Below are positions 39,147 to 45,568 of a stretch of DNA of 64,000 bases, piece after piece (within the stretch, counting starts at the first letter, position 1; each line of letters begins with the position of its first letter). The DNA is taken from positions 1 through 64,000 of the forward strand of contig JAHBXQ010000005.1 of assembly GCA_019636345.1 (NCBI GenBank), given 5' to 3'. The position numbers and the translations under genes are program-made. The notes under the pieces were generated by a model that did not search any database, was not told the origin of the DNA, and saw nothing but the letters and a program-made list of their open reading frames with translations. The stretch comes from Pirellulales bacterium (lineage in GTDB: Bacteria > Planctomycetota > Planctomycetia > Pirellulales > Lacipirellulaceae).

Positions 39147-39167
39147 TGGGCGGCACAAGACTCGAAC
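39147..39167. repeat. Left attachment repeat of the integrative element (21 bp)
   Basis: A 21-bp sequence beginning tgggcggcacaagactc, identical to 45495-45515, which is the 3' end of the tRNA-Val gene (discriminator base, acceptor strand and T arm). Bases beyond the 21 differ on both sides. It is the partial tRNA copy left at the far end by site-specific integration. Confidence 0.92.
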
Positions 39168-39346
39168 ACCCCCGGCGGAACGGGGGGAATTCGAGTAGTC
39201 CGTGGGAAAGCGGCGCAGAATGCGGCGCACTCGGCGCACAAAACGCCCCGTTTGACCCCGATTTGGCGGCCTTGGTCGAGGCTTGGCCGACGCTGCCGGA
39301 AGCGCTGAAGGCGGGCATCCTGGCGATGGTCCGGGGGACGAAGTGA
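39168..39346 (+). other. Spare integrase 3' coding tail (joined to the integrase only in the excised circle)
   Basis: From the left att repeat an open frame runs 59 codons to TGA at 39344-39346, ending FDPDLAALVEAWPTLPEALK and GILAMVRGTK, which reads as genuine protein. The frame within the repeat (GGTRLE) is exactly the frame the integrase uses in the right repeat, and the 6348-bp offset is divisible by three. In an excised circle this segment would follow codon 438 of the integrase, giving a 497-residue protein instead of 444. It also contains a DNA stretch (about 39207-39240) similar to one near 45357-45390 inside the integrase. Confidence 0.7.
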
Positions 39347-39860
39347 CGCGCTCGCTTGTCCTCCCCCGACGGGGCGCCCGGTACGCACGCGAGAGGGGAA
39401 TTTTCTGCCCCAAGTTTGGCCCTACCGGGGCCCCACGGGATATTCGGCCGGCGTTTCTTGGAATCGCCCCCTCCCCCTCGCTGAGCGTTTCCGCCGGGGG
39501 TTAGTCTCGCACTCTCCGCGACCGCGGCATTGGCCGGCAACCACGCTGGACGGGATGAAGCGGCGTTGGCGTGGCTGGTTGTCAACGGTTACACGCCCCC
39601 GCCCGAATTGGCAGACTTCGCAGAGCGGCGCATGCTGCGGTAGAATGCACCATGCCAAGCAGGCGGAAAAGGACCGAGGGGGGCTTGGGGGGTTGTGCGC
39701 TGCGGCCGCGGGCCGACTGTGACAATGGCCGGCGCGAATCTTCGCGCCGAGAGAATTGGGTAGCCGGCTGATCCCCGGTGAACGATCCTTGCGGGTACGG
39801 GGCGCTTGCCTGCCACCGACCCGCACGGATCGGCCCATCGACATAAAGGCAAGACTTCTC
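39347..39860. other. Mostly non-coding segment with a possible decayed ORF
   Basis: A 514-bp interval of the element. Only one stretch looks protein-like: in the frame ending at TAG 39641-39643, codons from about 39506 read LALSATAALAGNHAGRDEAA and LAWLVVNGYTPPPELADF, without an obvious start codon. It may be the 3' end of a lost gene. The rest, including a GC-rich stretch before the next gene, shows nothing recognisable. Confidence 0.4.
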
Positions 39861-40625
39861 ATGGCGTCAGAAGCCCGTGCACTGCTCGACGAACAAATTG
39901 CGGCGTTGAACGCCCTGCGGGACGCGGCCCAATGGGCATATAGAGGTGCGGGTTTCCTGCAGGTATTGGCCATCCGTGGTGATGGGGAAGAGCTTGCCTC
40001 CTACTTGGCAAACCTGACGATTGAGAGACGCGCGGATCTGAACGACTGCTTGAAACGCGCCGAACATTGGTTAGGGCCGACGAATCCGGTTTATGTCCCG
40101 ATTCCTGCAGCTGAAGACGATTATCCGTCGGCCTGCTATGGCGCGGCATGTTTTTTTTCGGCACTGGCGGTCTTGGCTGGTGATGAAGCCAATACAGACG
40201 AACACCTGCCGACCGATGCAGTTGGGCTGGCCCGAGCCTTGGCGGAAAAGTTTCAATCCGGCATCCCCGATTGGCTGCTGTGGCCGCCGGTCGATGAATT
40301 GGAACGCTTGGTCGACGTTGTGCGGCAAGAAACCGACGCGGCAATCAAGTATCACACCGCACGATTTATCGGCATCCGCCCAGCAGCCGAAGCCGACGAG
40401 CACGCCGACGCGACCCAGCCGCCAACGGAGCGCAAGCGCCGTGGCCGGCGAAAGGCCGATTACGAAACGGTCCAACGGGAATCCCAGCTTGCGGCGGCCT
40501 GGGAACAGGCGCGAATAAGCGGCGTTTACAAGCCCGACTTTGCTAAGAACCACGGAACGACCGCGGCAAAGCTCGACTTGCTCTTGGACCGCGTGGGGCA
40601 GCGAAATCGGCGCTCCGACAAATAG
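39861..40625 (+). CDS. Hypothetical element protein with basic, HTH-like C-terminus
   Basis: A protein of 254 residues, not assigned to a known family. Residues 1-165 are mainly helical and acidic (MASEARALLDEQIAALNALR, LANLTIERRADLNDCLKRAE, WLLWPPVDELERLVDVVRQE). After a linker (about 175-195) comes a highly basic block, ERKRRGRRKADYETVQRESQ, then WEQARISGVYKPDFAKNHGT and TAAKLDLLLDRV, which looks like a DNA-binding segment. The ATG at 39861 has aaagg 12 bases upstream; the ORF open to 39756 is not needed. The 3' end overlaps the first iteron-like repeat (40614). A replication-initiator or regulatory role at those repeats is possible but unproven. Confidence 0.65.
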   Translation: MASEARALLDEQIAALNALRDAAQWAYRGAGFLQVLAIRGDGEELASYLANLTIERRADLNDCLKRAEHWLGPTNPVYVPIPAAEDDYPSACYGAACFFSALAVLAGDEANTDEHLPTDAVGLARALAEKFQSGIPDWLLWPPVDELERLVDVVRQETDAAIKYHTARFIGIRPAAEADEHADATQPPTERKRRGRRKADYETVQRESQLAAAWEQARISGVYKPDFAKNHGTTAAKLDLLLDRVGQRNRRSDK

Positions 40626-40744
40626 CTCCGACAACGGCGCGAATTTGTCGGAGAGAAAAACTCCTCGCCGCTTTCTGCGGCAATTCGGTGCTTTTGCCCG
40701 CGAATCGTTCCGACAAATTGCTCCGACAAAATCGATCTGTCGGA
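40614..40744. repeat. Iteron-like array: six copies of TCCGACAA in two ordered modules
   Basis: Forward copies of tccgacaa at 40614, 40627, 40709 and 40722, and inverted copies ttgtcgga at 40645 and ctgtcgga (one mismatch) at 40737. Each module is forward, forward 13 bp later, then inverted. It lies between the hypothetical gene and the HTH gene, directly upstream of the primase. This fits an origin of replication or an operator for the element. Confidence 0.75.
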
Positions 40745-40812
40745 ACGCCCCTTAGTTTCACGTTTATGCGAGCCGCGCTTCGTGGCGAGCAACTGAAGCC
40801 AAGGAATCTGCG

Positions 40813-41031
40813 ATGCGAAACCATGGAACGGGCGCCGCGCTGCTCGTCGACGCCCGCGAGGCGGCGCGGATGCTCTCCGTCTCGCCCCGAAAATTGTGGG
40901 GAATGACGTTCGAGGACTCGCCGGGGCTGCCCTTCGTTCGCTGCGGACGGCTGGTCCGATACTCACCCGATGACCTGCGCCAGTGGATCGACGCGCAGCG
41001 GAAAGGGGGCGACGATGACAACGCCCGTTGA
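40813..41031 (+). CDS. Excisionase/AlpA-type helix-turn-helix protein
   Basis: A small DNA-binding protein of 72 residues. The winged HTH of the HTH_17/MerR-like excisionase group is visible: LLVDAREAARMLSVSPRKLW, then PFVRCGRLVRYSPDDLRQWI. In integrative elements such proteins direct the integrase towards excision or regulate element genes. It lies just after the iteron-like array, to which it could bind, and its end overlaps the primase start by 17 bp, so the two are in one operon. Confidence 0.85.
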   Translation: MRNHGTGAALLVDAREAARMLSVSPRKLWGMTFEDSPGLPFVRCGRLVRYSPDDLRQWIDAQRKGGDDDNAR

Positions 41032-43390
41032 ACGGCTCTTGGCGAAGCTGGCCGACGCCAAGCAAGCCGGCAAAGGGTGGTCGGCGAGCTGCCCGGCGCA
41101 CGACGACCGCCGCGCGAGTTTGTCAATCGACGAGGGCGACGACGGCCGAGCGCTCTTGTTTTGCCATGCCGGTTGTAAGGTCGACGACATTTGCGGTGCG
41201 ATCGGGCTGCGGGTCGCGGACTTGATGACGCCGGGCTCGCTGCCGTCGCCCAACAAGCCGCGACTGAACGGCAGCGCCGGGAGCAACGGCCATTCCCGAA
41301 TCGTCGCCGAGTACGACTACCGCGACGAAGCGGGCGAGCTGTTGTTCCAAGTCGTGCGCTACGAACCGAAGGACTTCCGCCAGCGGCGCCCCAAGCCCGG
41401 CGGCGGCTGGGATTGGAGCGTCAAGGGCGTGCGCGCCGTGCCGTATCGCTTGCCCGAACTGCTGGCCGAGCCGACGCGGCCCGTGGTGGTGGTCGAGGGC
41501 GAGAAAGACGCCGACAATCTGGCACGCATCGGCGTGCTGGCGACGTGCAACGCCGGCGGGGCCGGCAAGTGGACCGCGGAGCACGCCGCGTTCCTGCGCG
41601 GCCGGCGTGTTGTGGTGCTGGCCGACAACGATGAACCGGGGCGCGCCCACGCCCAGCAAGTCGCCAAGTCGCTCGCCGGCATCGCGGCATCGGTGCGCAT
41701 GGTCGAGTTGCCCGGCCTGCCCCCCAAGGGCGATGCAAGCGATTGGCTTGCGGCCGGTGGAACGCGGGATGACTTGAAGCGGCTGGCGGAAGCCGCGCCC
41801 GAGTGGACGCCAACGACGGCGCAAGGGTGGCCCGAGTTGCAGCCGTTCGACGTGTTGGACGTGCCGGAGTTCCCCACGCACGCGCTGCCCGGCGCGGTTC
41901 GCGCGTGGGTCGAAGCCGAGTCACACGCCACGCAAACGCCCGCGGACCTGGCTGGCCTACTGGCCTTGGCCGTGTGCTCAGCGACGGTCGCGCGCCGCGT
42001 TGTGGTTGAGGCGCGGCAGGGTTGGCGCGAGCCGGTCAATCTGTTCGCGGCCGTGCTGCTGGAGCCGGGCAACCGCAAGTCGGCCGTGTTCGCCGACGCC
42101 ATGCAGCCGTTGCGCGAGTTGGAAGCCGAGTTGATTGAAGCCGCGCGACCGACGGTGGCCCGCGCACAATCCGACCGACGGCAAGACGACGCTCGGTTGC
42201 ACAAGCTCGAAAAGGTGGCGGCCGAAAAGGGCGACGCGGAAGCCCGACACGAAGCCGGCGAGCTGGCGGCGGCGCTGGCCGAGCAAGCCGAGCCGGTCTT
42301 GCCCCGGTTGATCGTCGATGATGCCACGGCGGAAAAGCTAGGAATGATGCTCGCCGACCACGGCGGCCGCATCGCCAGCATGTCGCCCGAAGGGGGCGTG
42401 TTCGACTTGATGGCCGGCTTGTACTCCAAGAGCGGCATTCCCCAATTTGGCGTCTACCTGATGGGGCATTCGGGCGACGACCTGAATACAGACCGCGTGG
42501 GCCGCAAGGGTGTGCGCGTCGAGCGGCCGGCGCTGACGTGCGCCTATGCGATGCAACCGGCGGTGATTGAAGGCTTGGCGGAGAACACGGCGTTCCGCGG
42601 CCGTGGGCTGCTGGCCCGCTTCCTGTATGCGGCGCCGCAAAGCTGGATCGGCCAACGCGAGATTGCCCCGACGCCCGTTTCCGATGCCACGCGCGAAGCA
42701 TACCGGCAAACCGTGCGAGCGCTCGCCGACGCGGAAAGTGAGTTCATCTTGCAACTTGCCCCCAGCGCAATGGCAGGGCTGCGCGAGTGGGAAACGGAAA
42801 TCGAAGCGATGCTCGCCGACGGCGGCCAAATGGAAATCATGCGCGACTGGGGCGCGAAGCTGGCCGGCGCCACGCTCCGGCTGGCGGCCGTTCTGCATTG
42901 CATCGCCCACGGCCCAACCGGGCGCATTGACGCGCCCACGTTGGCCGCGGCCATTGAAATCGCCCGCTATCTCGTTCCACACGCCGAAGCCGTGCTGAAC
43001 ATGATGCAAGCCAAGGAAGATTCGAGCGACGCCGATGCGCGGTACGTCCTTCGGTGGATCGAACGCCACGGCCGGCGGGAGTTCACCAAGCGCGACGCTC
43101 ACCAGCACGGCAAGCGGCGGTTTCCGAAGGCCGACGACATCGACGCCGCGTTGGGCGAACTGACGCGGCGGGGGTACGTCCGGCTGCGGCCCGCGGAAGC
43201 GCCCGGCCCGGGGCGGCCCCCTTCGCCCACCTACGAAGTGAACCCGGCGGCGTTCGATGGTGCGAAGCCAGAAAAGCGCTCCCACAATTCCCACAACGCT
43301 CCCGCGAGCCCGTTGGCTGTCGATTTTGAGAATTCTGAGAACGGTTTCGACCCGCCCGAAGGCGAAGGCCGCGTGAGGGTGACGCTATGA
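41015..43390 (+). CDS. Primase-helicase (CHC2-like zinc finger, Toprim, DUF3987)
   Basis: A replication protein of 791 residues. N-terminal zinc-finger residues appear in SCPAHDDRRASLSI and LLFCHAGCKVDDICGAIGL (CHC2 type). A Toprim catalytic region follows (VVVVEGEKDADNLARIGV, VVVLADNDEPGRAHAQQVAK). From about residue 290 the DUF3987 helicase-like domain has a P-loop-like LLEPGNRKSAVFADA and the later VYLMGHSGDDLNTD-type segment. The C-terminal winged-helix part ends ELTRRGYVRLRPAEAPGPG. The start ATG 41015 has a purine-rich site (aaaggggg). Together with the iteron-like repeats it suggests the excised element can replicate itself. It overlaps the next gene by ATGA. Confidence 0.87.
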   Translation: MTTPVERLLAKLADAKQAGKGWSASCPAHDDRRASLSIDEGDDGRALLFCHAGCKVDDICGAIGLRVADLMTPGSLPSPNKPRLNGSAGSNGHSRIVAEYDYRDEAGELLFQVVRYEPKDFRQRRPKPGGGWDWSVKGVRAVPYRLPELLAEPTRPVVVVEGEKDADNLARIGVLATCNAGGAGKWTAEHAAFLRGRRVVVLADNDEPGRAHAQQVAKSLAGIAASVRMVELPGLPPKGDASDWLAAGGTRDDLKRLAEAAPEWTPTTAQGWPELQPFDVLDVPEFPTHALPGAVRAWVEAESHATQTPADLAGLLALAVCSATVARRVVVEARQGWREPVNLFAAVLLEPGNRKSAVFADAMQPLRELEAELIEAARPTVARAQSDRRQDDARLHKLEKVAAEKGDAEARHEAGELAAALAEQAEPVLPRLIVDDATAEKLGMMLADHGGRIASMSPEGGVFDLMAGLYSKSGIPQFGVYLMGHSGDDLNTDRVGRKGVRVERPALTCAYAMQPAVIEGLAENTAFRGRGLLARFLYAAPQSWIGQREIAPTPVSDATREAYRQTVRALADAESEFILQLAPSAMAGLREWETEIEAMLADGGQMEIMRDWGAKLAGATLRLAAVLHCIAHGPTGRIDAPTLAAAIEIARYLVPHAEAVLNMMQAKEDSSDADARYVLRWIERHGRREFTKRDAHQHGKRRFPKADDIDAALGELTRRGYVRLRPAEAPGPGRPPSPTYEVNPAAFDGAKPEKRSHNSHNAPASPLAVDFENSENGFDPPEGEGRVRVTL

Positions 43391-43713
43391 CCGGCACCCC
43401 GATGACGGTGGCAGAACTTTTGGCCGACTGCAACACCCACGGCGTCCGGCTGGCGGCGCGCGACGGCGGCGGGCTGGCAATCGACGCCCCCCAAGCGGAG
43501 CTAACACCGGGCCTGCTGGAAGCCCTAACGGCCCGCAAGGCCGAGCTACTAGCGATGCTGCTGCCTACGGACGCAACGGCCGTGTGCCGATGCGGTTCGA
43601 CAGCTTGGCGCGACGTGGTGATTCACGGCGGGCAATCGGTTCGCCGCGACTGCGCCATATGCGGACGCTTCGCGAACTTTCCGATTTGGAATTCACGCCC
43701 CCTATTTGACTAA
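43387..43713 (+). CDS. TubC-N/zinc-ribbon small protein of the element
   Basis: A protein of 108 residues. The first about 60 residues (MTVAELLADCNTHGVRLAAR, LEALTARKAELLAMLL) resemble the TubC N-terminal docking domain, which occurs in planctomycete element proteins as well as in polyketide synthases. The C-terminus has a four-cysteine zinc ribbon: CRCGSTAWRDVVI and CAICGRFANFPIW. The start overlaps the primase stop (ATGA), so it is translationally coupled and may assist the primase. Function not known. Confidence 0.72.
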   Translation: MTGTPMTVAELLADCNTHGVRLAARDGGGLAIDAPQAELTPGLLEALTARKAELLAMLLPTDATAVCRCGSTAWRDVVIHGGQSVRRDCAICGRFANFPIWNSRPLFD

Positions 43714-43732
43714 ACGACATACAAGGGATAGG

Positions 43733-44173
43733 ATGGCCACAATGAAGCGAAAGTTATCCGACCAAATCCGTCGATGCGTCGATGCGTCAGAGCTTTCGCG
43801 CTACGTCATAGCCAAGCTGGCGCAAATCGACCATGCGGCATTTTCCCGCTTCATGGGTGGAAGCGGCGGGTTTTCCTTAGACAGCTTGGACCGACTAGCT
43901 GGGGTTCTTGGGTTAGTCGTTGAAAGTGAAGTTCCAAAACGAAAGGGTAAGAAAATGAGTACGGAAGTTGGCCACGTCAATCAACAAGGGCAGCGAGTCA
44001 TTCGTCGAATTGGGCCTAGCCCTTCGCACTCGAACCAATCCACCTATCAACTCGAATGCACGCGCTGCGGCAACAATTATGGTGCCAACGGTTGCGACAT
44101 CGATGGTGCGAATGCCGGGGCCGGTCGGCGGTGTCCGCAATGTCAGGAAGGCACCCCCGGCGATCCCATCTAG
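43733..44173 (+). CDS. XRE-like HTH protein with C-terminal zinc ribbon
   Basis: A protein of 146 residues. The start is ATG 43733 after an aaggga site; the TTG at 43706 is less likely. Residues of about 5-60 look like a Cro/C1-type helix-turn-helix: LSDQIRRCVDASELSRYVIA, AFSRFMGGSGGFSLDSLDRL and AGVLGLVVE. The second half holds CTRCGNNYGANGCD and RRCPQCQEG, a probable zinc ribbon. The codon use is less GC-rich than its surroundings. It precedes the integrase by 27 bp; a repressor role for the element is plausible but inferred. Confidence 0.7.
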   Translation: MATMKRKLSDQIRRCVDASELSRYVIAKLAQIDHAAFSRFMGGSGGFSLDSLDRLAGVLGLVVESEVPKRKGKKMSTEVGHVNQQGQRVIRRIGPSPSHSNQSTYQLECTRCGNNYGANGCDIDGANAGAGRRCPQCQEGTPGDPI

Positions 44174-44200
44174 TGATTCCAAACGGAAAGTGAAAAGCCA

Positions 44201-45535
44201 ATGGCCAGCATCGCCCGCGACAAGAACGGCACGCGGCGGATTTTGTTCGTCGCCCCCGACGGCAAGCGACCGACGATCCGACTGGGCAAGGTTTCGCAGC
44301 GGACCGCCGAAGGCGTCAAATACCGCGTCGAGCAATTGTTGGAATCGCTGCGCTTTGGCCGTTCGATGGATGCGGACCTCTCCGAGTGGGTTGTCGGGCT
44401 GGACCCGGACTTGGCCAAGAGATTCGCGGCGGTGGGCTTGATTGCGCCGCGCGAGCCGCGGGCGGTCAAGACTCTCGGCGAGCACCTGACCGAATACTTT
44501 GCCCGGCGAACCGACGTGAAGCCGAACACGCTCACGCACTGGAACCACACAAAGCGACTGTTGCTTGCCTACTTCGGCGCGGACCGGCCGTTGGCCGGCA
44601 TCACGGCCGGCGAGGCCCGCGACTGGGAACGCTGGCTGAAGACTGGCGAAGCCCGTGAGAATCGCTACGCCGGGCACAAGGCGACCGATGGGCTGGCCCC
44701 CAACACGGCCCGCAAGCGCGTCGCCAACGCCAAGCAGTTCTTTCAAGACGCGGTGCAACGCGAACTGCTTGCGCGGAATCCCTTTGCCGAACTCAAGGGA
44801 ACCGTCGGAAGCAACCGCGAGCGGGACCGCTTCATTGATCGCGCCACGGCGACGAAGATTCTGGACGCCTGCCCCGATGCCGAATGGCGTCTGATCTTCG
44901 CGTTGGCGCGGTATGCCGGACTGCGATGCCCGAGCGAACTTCTGGCGCTAACTTGGGCTGACGTGAACTGGGCCGAAAGCCGATTGCTGGTCCGCAGCGC
45001 CAAGACCGCGCACCACGAAGGCAAGGCGACGCGCCTTGTGCCGATCTTCCCCGAGCTGCGGCCGTATCTTGAACAAGTCTGGGACGAAGCCGAGCCGGGC
45101 GCACAGAACGTTGTCACGCGATACCGGGCCGCAAACGTCAACCTCCGGACCCAGCTAGAGCGAATCATCCGCCGGGCCGGGCTCGAATCGTGGCCCAAGC
45201 TGTTTCAGAATCTCCGCGCCAGCCGGGCGACGGAACTGGCCAGCGAGTTCCCCGCGCACGTCGCGGCGGCGTGGCTGGGCCACTCAACATTGGTGGCAAA
45301 CAAACACTACTGGCAAGTGACGGACGCCGATTTCGCCAAGGCCGCAGGGGGCGGCAGCGAAGCGGCGCAAAATGCGGCGCAGTCAGCGCACGCAGAGGGT
45401 CGCGGCGAGTCGCACGACGAACTGCCCGCGCAAAGAAAAGCCCCGGTTTTGCGAGGGTCTGCGCTTAGAAGCGAAACCGTGCAAAACCGGGGCATGGGCG
45501 GCACAAGACTCGAACTTGTGACCTCTACGGTGTGA
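44201..45535 (+). CDS. Tyrosine recombinase (integrase) of the element
   Basis: An integrase of 444 residues. The core-binding domain is at about 85-200 (LGEHLTEYFARRTDVKPNTL) and the catalytic domain at about 205-385. Active-site residues: R242 (ARYAGLRCPSELLAL), K268, R339 (KLFQNLRASRATEL, where box II His is Gln, Q336), H361 (AAWLGHSTLVANKHYW) and nucleophile Y370. The variant box is usual for planctomycete relatives. The 3' end runs into the tRNA-Val gene on the other strand: codons from 433 (GGTRLE) lie in the 21-bp att repeat, and the last six residues LVTSTV come from host tRNA sequence. On excision the tail would be replaced (see 39168-39346). Confidence 0.93.
   Translation: MASIARDKNGTRRILFVAPDGKRPTIRLGKVSQRTAEGVKYRVEQLLESLRFGRSMDADLSEWVVGLDPDLAKRFAAVGLIAPREPRAVKTLGEHLTEYFARRTDVKPNTLTHWNHTKRLLLAYFGADRPLAGITAGEARDWERWLKTGEARENRYAGHKATDGLAPNTARKRVANAKQFFQDAVQRELLARNPFAELKGTVGSNRERDRFIDRATATKILDACPDAEWRLIFALARYAGLRCPSELLALTWADVNWAESRLLVRSAKTAHHEGKATRLVPIFPELRPYLEQVWDEAEPGAQNVVTRYRAANVNLRTQLERIIRRAGLESWPKLFQNLRASRATELASEFPAHVAAAWLGHSTLVANKHYWQVTDADFAKAAGGGSEAAQNAAQSAHAEGRGESHDELPAQRKAPVLRGSALRSETVQNRGMGGTRLELVTSTV
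45495..45515. repeat. Right attachment repeat of the integrative element (21 bp)
   Basis: Identical to 39147-39167. It is the 3' end of the tRNA-Val gene and at the same time the end of the integrase reading frame. The tRNA on this side is complete, so integration left a functional tRNA. Confidence 0.92.
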
Positions 45536-45568
45536 ACGTAGCGCTCTAACCAACTGAGCTAGCCGCCC
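45495..45568 (-). tRNA. tRNA-Val (anticodon CAC)
   Basis: 74 nt on the minus strand without encoded CCA. Acceptor stem GGGCGGC/GCCGCCC, discriminator A (45495), D arm GCTCAGTTGGTTAGAGC, anticodon stem CTACG/CGTAG with loop TTCACAC (anticodon CAC, reading GUG), T arm with TTCGAGT. It is the integration site of the element; its last 21 nt are duplicated at 39147. Confidence 0.95.

Follow-up and report, generated by a model that had tools for sequence, protein, structure and literature searches.

A conserved C-terminal tail predicted to be severed from the integrase when planctomycete elements insert into tRNA genes

Results

An integrative element occupies the 3′ end of a tRNA-Val gene

The features found at the locus are listed in Table 1. 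The window, by which we mean the whole 64,000-nt stretch of Pirellulales DNA that was analysed (contig JAHBXQ010000005.1, positions 1 to 64,000), contains an element flanked by two copies of a perfect 21-bp direct repeat, at 39147-39167 and 45495-45515, spaced 6348 bp apart. An intact tRNA gene is present at one end, a displaced 3′ fragment of it at the other end and an integrase gene in between, the arrangement that characterizes integrative elements targeting tRNA genes. The layout is shared with 18 relatives.

Table 1. Features of the element and its integration site (positions in the window).
Feature	Position	Strand	Remarks
Integrated element, att to att	39147..45515	.	6348 bp plus one 21-bp repeat; delimited by the perfect direct repeat and the 3′ end of the tRNA
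Left att copy	39147..39167	+	3′ piece of tRNA-Val, displaced; same frame as the integrase copy
59-codon integrase tail and stop	39167..39346	+	severed from the integrase when integrated
Candidate arm-type site, P′ side, GCGGCGCAGAATGCGGCGCACTCGGCGCA	39208..39239	+	direct copy of 45360-45391
Hairpin motif DPDLAALVEAWPTLPEALKAGILAMV in the tail	~39254-39331	+	
Five iteron-like TCCGACAA repeats	40614..40729	.	upstream of the Xis-like and primase genes
Small HTH_17 protein, AlpA/excisionase-like (Xis-like)	40813..41031	+	Pfam HTH_17; PHROG excisionase
Primase-helicase	40970..43390	+	Toprim and DUF3987
HTH regulator	43706..44173	+	HTH_31 match, below cut-off
Tyrosine integrase	44201..45535	+	444 aa integrated; 438 aa plus 59-aa tail = 497 aa predicted in the circle
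Candidate arm-type site, P side	45360..45391	+	inside int, coding AAQNAAQSAH
Right att copy	45495..45515	+	within both int and tRNA-Val
Intact tRNA-Val (cac)	45495..45568	-	integration target; the right repeat is the tRNA 3′ end

The integrase belongs to the tyrosine recombinases/phage integrases, which combine a Phage_integrase catalytic domain with a SAM-like core-binding domain, as indicated by matches to PF00589 (E 3.4e-11) and PF13102 (E 1.2e-6), both above the cut-off, and by its assignment to PHROG integrase. Close relatives of it occur in the genome of Bythopirellula polymerisocia Pla144, and its relatives point to a Pirellulales-like planctomycete as host. In gene content (integrase, Xis/AlpA-like regulator and primase) the element fits a phage satellite of the PICI-like type. 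PICI-like satellites lack structural genes and are mobilised by a helper phage. The true start of the primase-helicase gene is probably located downstream of 40970. The TCCGACAA repeats comprise four direct copies and one inverted copy, arranged in two clusters; nine copies are present in the window versus 2.6 expected, and those at 40614-40729 are candidates for iterons, an operator or an origin. The element also contains a 108-aa open reading frame (43387-43713) that matches the TubC_N docking domain (E 2.8e-9). This domain is otherwise known from NRPS/PKS proteins and is odd in a small integrative element.

The integrase frame has two alternative 3′ ends

In the integrated state the reading frame of the integrase runs into the right repeat and terminates as GGTRLE-LVTSTV within the antisense strand of the tRNA-Val gene. 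The catalytic domain, residues 212-375, is intact in this 444-aa form. When the left repeat is read in the integrase frame, it encodes GGTRLE followed by 59 codons, which end in ILAMVRGTK before a stop codon at 39344-39346, and joining the two ends in silico as a circle generated a 497-aa integrase. All of these coordinates and counts (the 21-bp repeat, the frames, 444 and 497 aa, the 59 codons and the stop) had been given in the initial annotation and proved correct upon recomputation. At least 59 open codons follow ~50% of the positions chosen at random from this GC-rich window, and the open frame of the tail is for that reason by itself no evidence for a coding function. The evidence comes instead from relatives, in which the tail, its reading frame and its codon usage are conserved. 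Between att and the conserved motif of the tail in the window, no ATG, GTG or TTG is in frame; the first such codons are the TTG codons at 39263 and 39272, inside the motif.

The tail lies in the integrase frame at the distal att of related elements

When the tail was used as query in a translated search, homologues were detected in 121 out of 297 genomes of the order, and a search with its C-terminal 45 residues detected them in 28 of 246 genomes sampled across the phylum. The integrase itself is present in 238 of the 297 genomes of the order. Most of the tail homologues are found in short open frames, which often precede an integrase gene on the same strand. Loci containing both integrase and tail were searched for triads, in which a direct repeat links the 3′ end of the integrase gene to upstream sequence, and the hairpin motif was sought in three frames behind the distal copy. 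In all 19 integrase/att/tail triads the tail was in the integrase frame through att. The chance of obtaining this result would be (1/3)^19 = 9e-10 if the triads were independent, a figure that overstates the evidence because the 19 triads share descent, yet their sequences have diverged and their att sites are located in different tRNA genes. At least eight tRNA species serve as targets, including tRNA-Val, Met, Glu, Ser, Arg, Ala and Asn, with several anticodons. The number of codons following att in the free form is 57-72 in nearly all triads (range 49-80); that in the integrated form is 4-81 and is set by the tRNA and the sequence behind it. The invariant part across the triads is the tail, unlike the tRNA-derived ending.

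A less biased sample consisted of 40 loci selected by their integrase, in which a distal att was sought within ~18 kb. A distal att was found at only seven of these loci, and at each of the seven the att frame was open for 40-78 codons. Four carry the canonical motif and one (L244) a tail that is homologous by eye and lacks the tryptophan; no recognisable tail motif was detected behind the distal att of the other two (L229 and L233). The tail is common, though it may not be universal. In a separate case (L086/L289, G080:C30), two integrase genes are located near one element and the second of them ends in another tRNA gene (Arg), which suggests neighbouring insertions.

Selection on the tail and its predicted structure

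Selection was analysed on a 24-codon motif in 92 distinct tails. In the integrase frame pN/pS of the motif was 0.47 when pooled and 0.45 in 38 independent pairs; in the other frames it was 0.94 and 1.72. Differences at codon positions 1, 2 and 3 numbered 227, 148 and 345, each of 912. The substitution pattern indicates that the tail is under purifying selection at the protein level. The 36 codons upstream of the motif are open in the integrase frame in 92 of the 96 tails, and in the other frames in 50 and 24. An ATG or GTG of its own is present within these 36 codons in only 34 of the 96 tails (51 when TTG is counted as well). Being selected as protein and mostly devoid of a start codon, the tail would generally be reached only by read-through of att, that is, from the integrase in the circle. 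In the initial annotation it was claimed that integration replaces the C-terminus of the integrase and that the longer tail of the free form is meaningful, and inspection of related elements was proposed as a check. At their distal att the tail is conserved, always in frame and usually without its own start, and this position together with the purifying selection strongly supports the claim. The comparison of these genomes indicates that the C-terminal swap is real and conserved phylum-wide.

AlphaFold, applied to the tail alignment, predicted a disordered first half followed by two helices (38-49 and 52-65), the latter with per-block pLDDT values of 88-95. A helical hairpin is the high-confidence prediction for the C-terminal part of the tail, and a search with this fold against the PDB gave no match.

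Candidate arm-type sites on both sides of the core

A 32-nt sequence containing direct repeats of the GCGGCGCA type, not mentioned in the initial annotation, is present within the integrase gene and again between the left att and the hairpin motif; its GCGGCGCAGAATGCGGCGCACTCGGCGCA sequence gave two matches versus 0.03 expected. In the triads, GCGGCGCA-type repeats are mostly positioned 110-136 bp before att on the integrase side and 58-86 bp after the start of att on the tail side, and in most triads they exceed shuffled controls. Their reading frame differs between the two sides in 16 of the 19 triads. Conservation of the GCGGCGCA repeats across frames points to a function at the DNA level, and they probably constitute arm-type sites for the integrase. 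The possibility that the 39208-39239 copy is a remnant of an integrase gene was discarded, since in most relatives this copy is read in a different frame and keeps a constant spacing to the core.

Relics and the search for free forms

No circle or attP junction was seen in the collections searched. In the search for a free or viral form, no relatives were found in IMG/VR or among phages, and no close ones among plasmids; the aligned tails varied too much to be used in a scan. An intact full-length gene joining integrase and tail was not found in the genomes, which yielded only 5′-truncated or decayed relics. These consist of a 5′-truncated integrase, a tRNA-derived att peptide and the tail in one frame (L290/L092, L283/L100, L288, L278, L279 and L297), and L282 and L284 have the same arrangement with a stop codon upstream. 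The junction in the relics is of the kind that attP or a tandem hybrid would have, and none of them is a complete gene. Chromosomal relics such as L290, L282, L283, L288, L297, L278 and L279 may be scars of tandem integration. One candidate for a full-length fusion of integrase and tail (G124:C2) turned out to be an ordinary tRNA-ended integrase. A synteny comparison did not reveal an empty attB, and the mobB loci of relatives have no tRNA gene nearby.

Discussion

It is very probable that the tail is a state-dependent part of the integrase. The explanation that best accounts for the results, and that we consider probable, is that attP resides inside the integrase gene, that integration severs a C-terminal hairpin and that excision restores the long form. 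According to this model the element carries attP within the 3′ part of its integrase gene, so that in the circle the gene would read through att and the P′ arm into the helical hairpin to give the 497-aa protein. Recombination with the 3′ end of the tRNA-Val gene would cut the gene at att. The hairpin codons would be left behind at the opposite end, where they lack a usable start, and the chromosomal gene would then end in a few tRNA-antisense codons and specify 444 aa with the catalytic domain intact. Upon excision the long form would return. With this domain left whole, an integrase, albeit a different one, can still be produced from the integrated element. The initial annotation proposed that activity, stability or partner binding of the integrase would differ between the two states; by analogy with phage Mx8 the two forms would differ in activity. 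The recurrence of the arrangement in relatives throughout the phylum, with many different tRNA genes as targets, suggests that the integrase senses whether its element is free or inserted.

The open frame at the left end could be thought to derive from an older integrase gene decaying at the same tRNA gene and foreign to that of the present element. The resemblance of the repeat at 39208-39239 to the integrase stretch coding AAQNAAQSAH, as well as the occurrence in other genomes of relics joining an integrase C-terminus, att and tail, would fit such an origin. It is nevertheless highly improbable, since in every triad the tail follows, in frame, the distal att copy of the very element that carries the integrase, and since it is under purifying selection; moreover, the repeat, with its change of frame and fixed distance to the core, fits arm sites in DNA, and its constraint as DNA implies that the left end is not an old integrase remnant. 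Just as improbable is that only DNA, the attP arm and core sites, is conserved and that the reading frame is incidental. The arm-like repeats flanking the core are indeed conserved as DNA in two frames, but the hairpin motif located downstream of the arm displays an excess of third-position differences and a pN/pS below 0.5 in the integrase frame only, and its fold is predicted confidently. The tail might also be a separate small gene that is translated independently while the element is integrated, as the minority of tails with an upstream ATG or GTG (about half with TTG) could allow. Against this argue the window itself, with its lack of in-frame starts between att and the motif, and the reading frame, which continues uninterrupted through att in 92 of 96 tails and is always that of the integrase; this alternative is barely more credible than the previous two.

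The direction of the switch is less clear. The long form may be the integration-competent one, its hairpin helping the assembly of the attP complex or contact with a partner, and the short form may be attenuated or altered such that the integrated state is stabilised and excision relies on a second factor, for instance the Xis-like protein. We give about an even chance to this direction, in which the hairpin promotes integration, its loss stabilises the integrated state and excision needs the Xis-like protein. The tail may instead be real and the switch reversed or neutral, the long form being unstable or inhibited and the short form the active excision enzyme. The present data fit either direction, and mycobacteriophage repressors are known to carry tags at the C-terminus that are lost upon integration; however, Magrini and colleagues (in 1999) reportedly found the prophage form of the Mx8 integrase to be less active, and the tail ends without an obvious degron-like sequence. 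We regard a reversed or neutral switch as unlikely, though far less so than the three alternatives above.

The logic of a C-terminal swap is known from Mx8. In this phage and in Mx9, attP is inside int and integration creates a new int 3′ end, which alters the enzyme and does not inactivate it (PMC6070905, citing Tojo 1996 and Magrini 1999). The planctomycete elements resemble Mx8 in having attP in int with the frame continuing on both sides, as in all 19 triads. The integrases, however, are only distantly related (28/88 identities in one segment), which places the planctomycete enzymes outside the Mx8 family, and the C-terminus of the Mx8 protein is unrelated to the planctomycete tail. What differs here is a conserved tail module, shared by many elements with many tRNA targets across the Planctomycetota. 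No report of such an integrase tail swap in Planctomycetes was found in the open-licence literature. In the mycobacteriophage system of integration-dependent immunity, attP is located in the repressor gene and integration removes a C-terminal segment, switching the behaviour of the protein. There too attP is in a coding gene and a C-terminus is lost, but the protein is a repressor and not an integrase. The 'suicidal' integrases of archaea (SSV1, pTN3 and pT26-2) also have their recombination site in the integrase gene, which is separated upon integration; this splits the catalytic from the N-terminal domain and disables the enzyme, and self-disrupting recombinases are claimed to be exclusively archaeal (PMC8371274). 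The enzyme studied here differs from these in that the catalytic domain stays whole and only the C-terminal tail is removed. For ICEKp1, int expression likewise depends on the integrated or excised state, through promoter switching (PMC13023037); there a promoter is switched and here the C-terminus of the protein.

It is somewhat probable that the element belongs to a phylum-wide family in which a severable C-terminal integrase hairpin serves as a state sensor, one that is present in the free form only, is removed by the integrase itself, is kept across tRNA targets and has arm sites embedded in two frames. Mx8, as the one well-studied bacterial case, could pass for an oddity. The same logic across the Planctomycetota and in many tRNA genes would point to a general strategy for recombination directionality, for which dozens of naturally occurring pairs offer a test. 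Where a segment is expressed in the free state only, purifying selection acting on it would be a record of repeated excision. For annotators, an orphan hairpin tail can serve as a marker for the far ends of such elements. Many draft contigs (L103, L105, L107, L116, L124, L151, L159 and others) stop ~0.2-2 kb past an orphan tail. This may reflect branching of the assembly at att, where integrated states are mixed with excised or empty ones, or the presence of elements in several copies.
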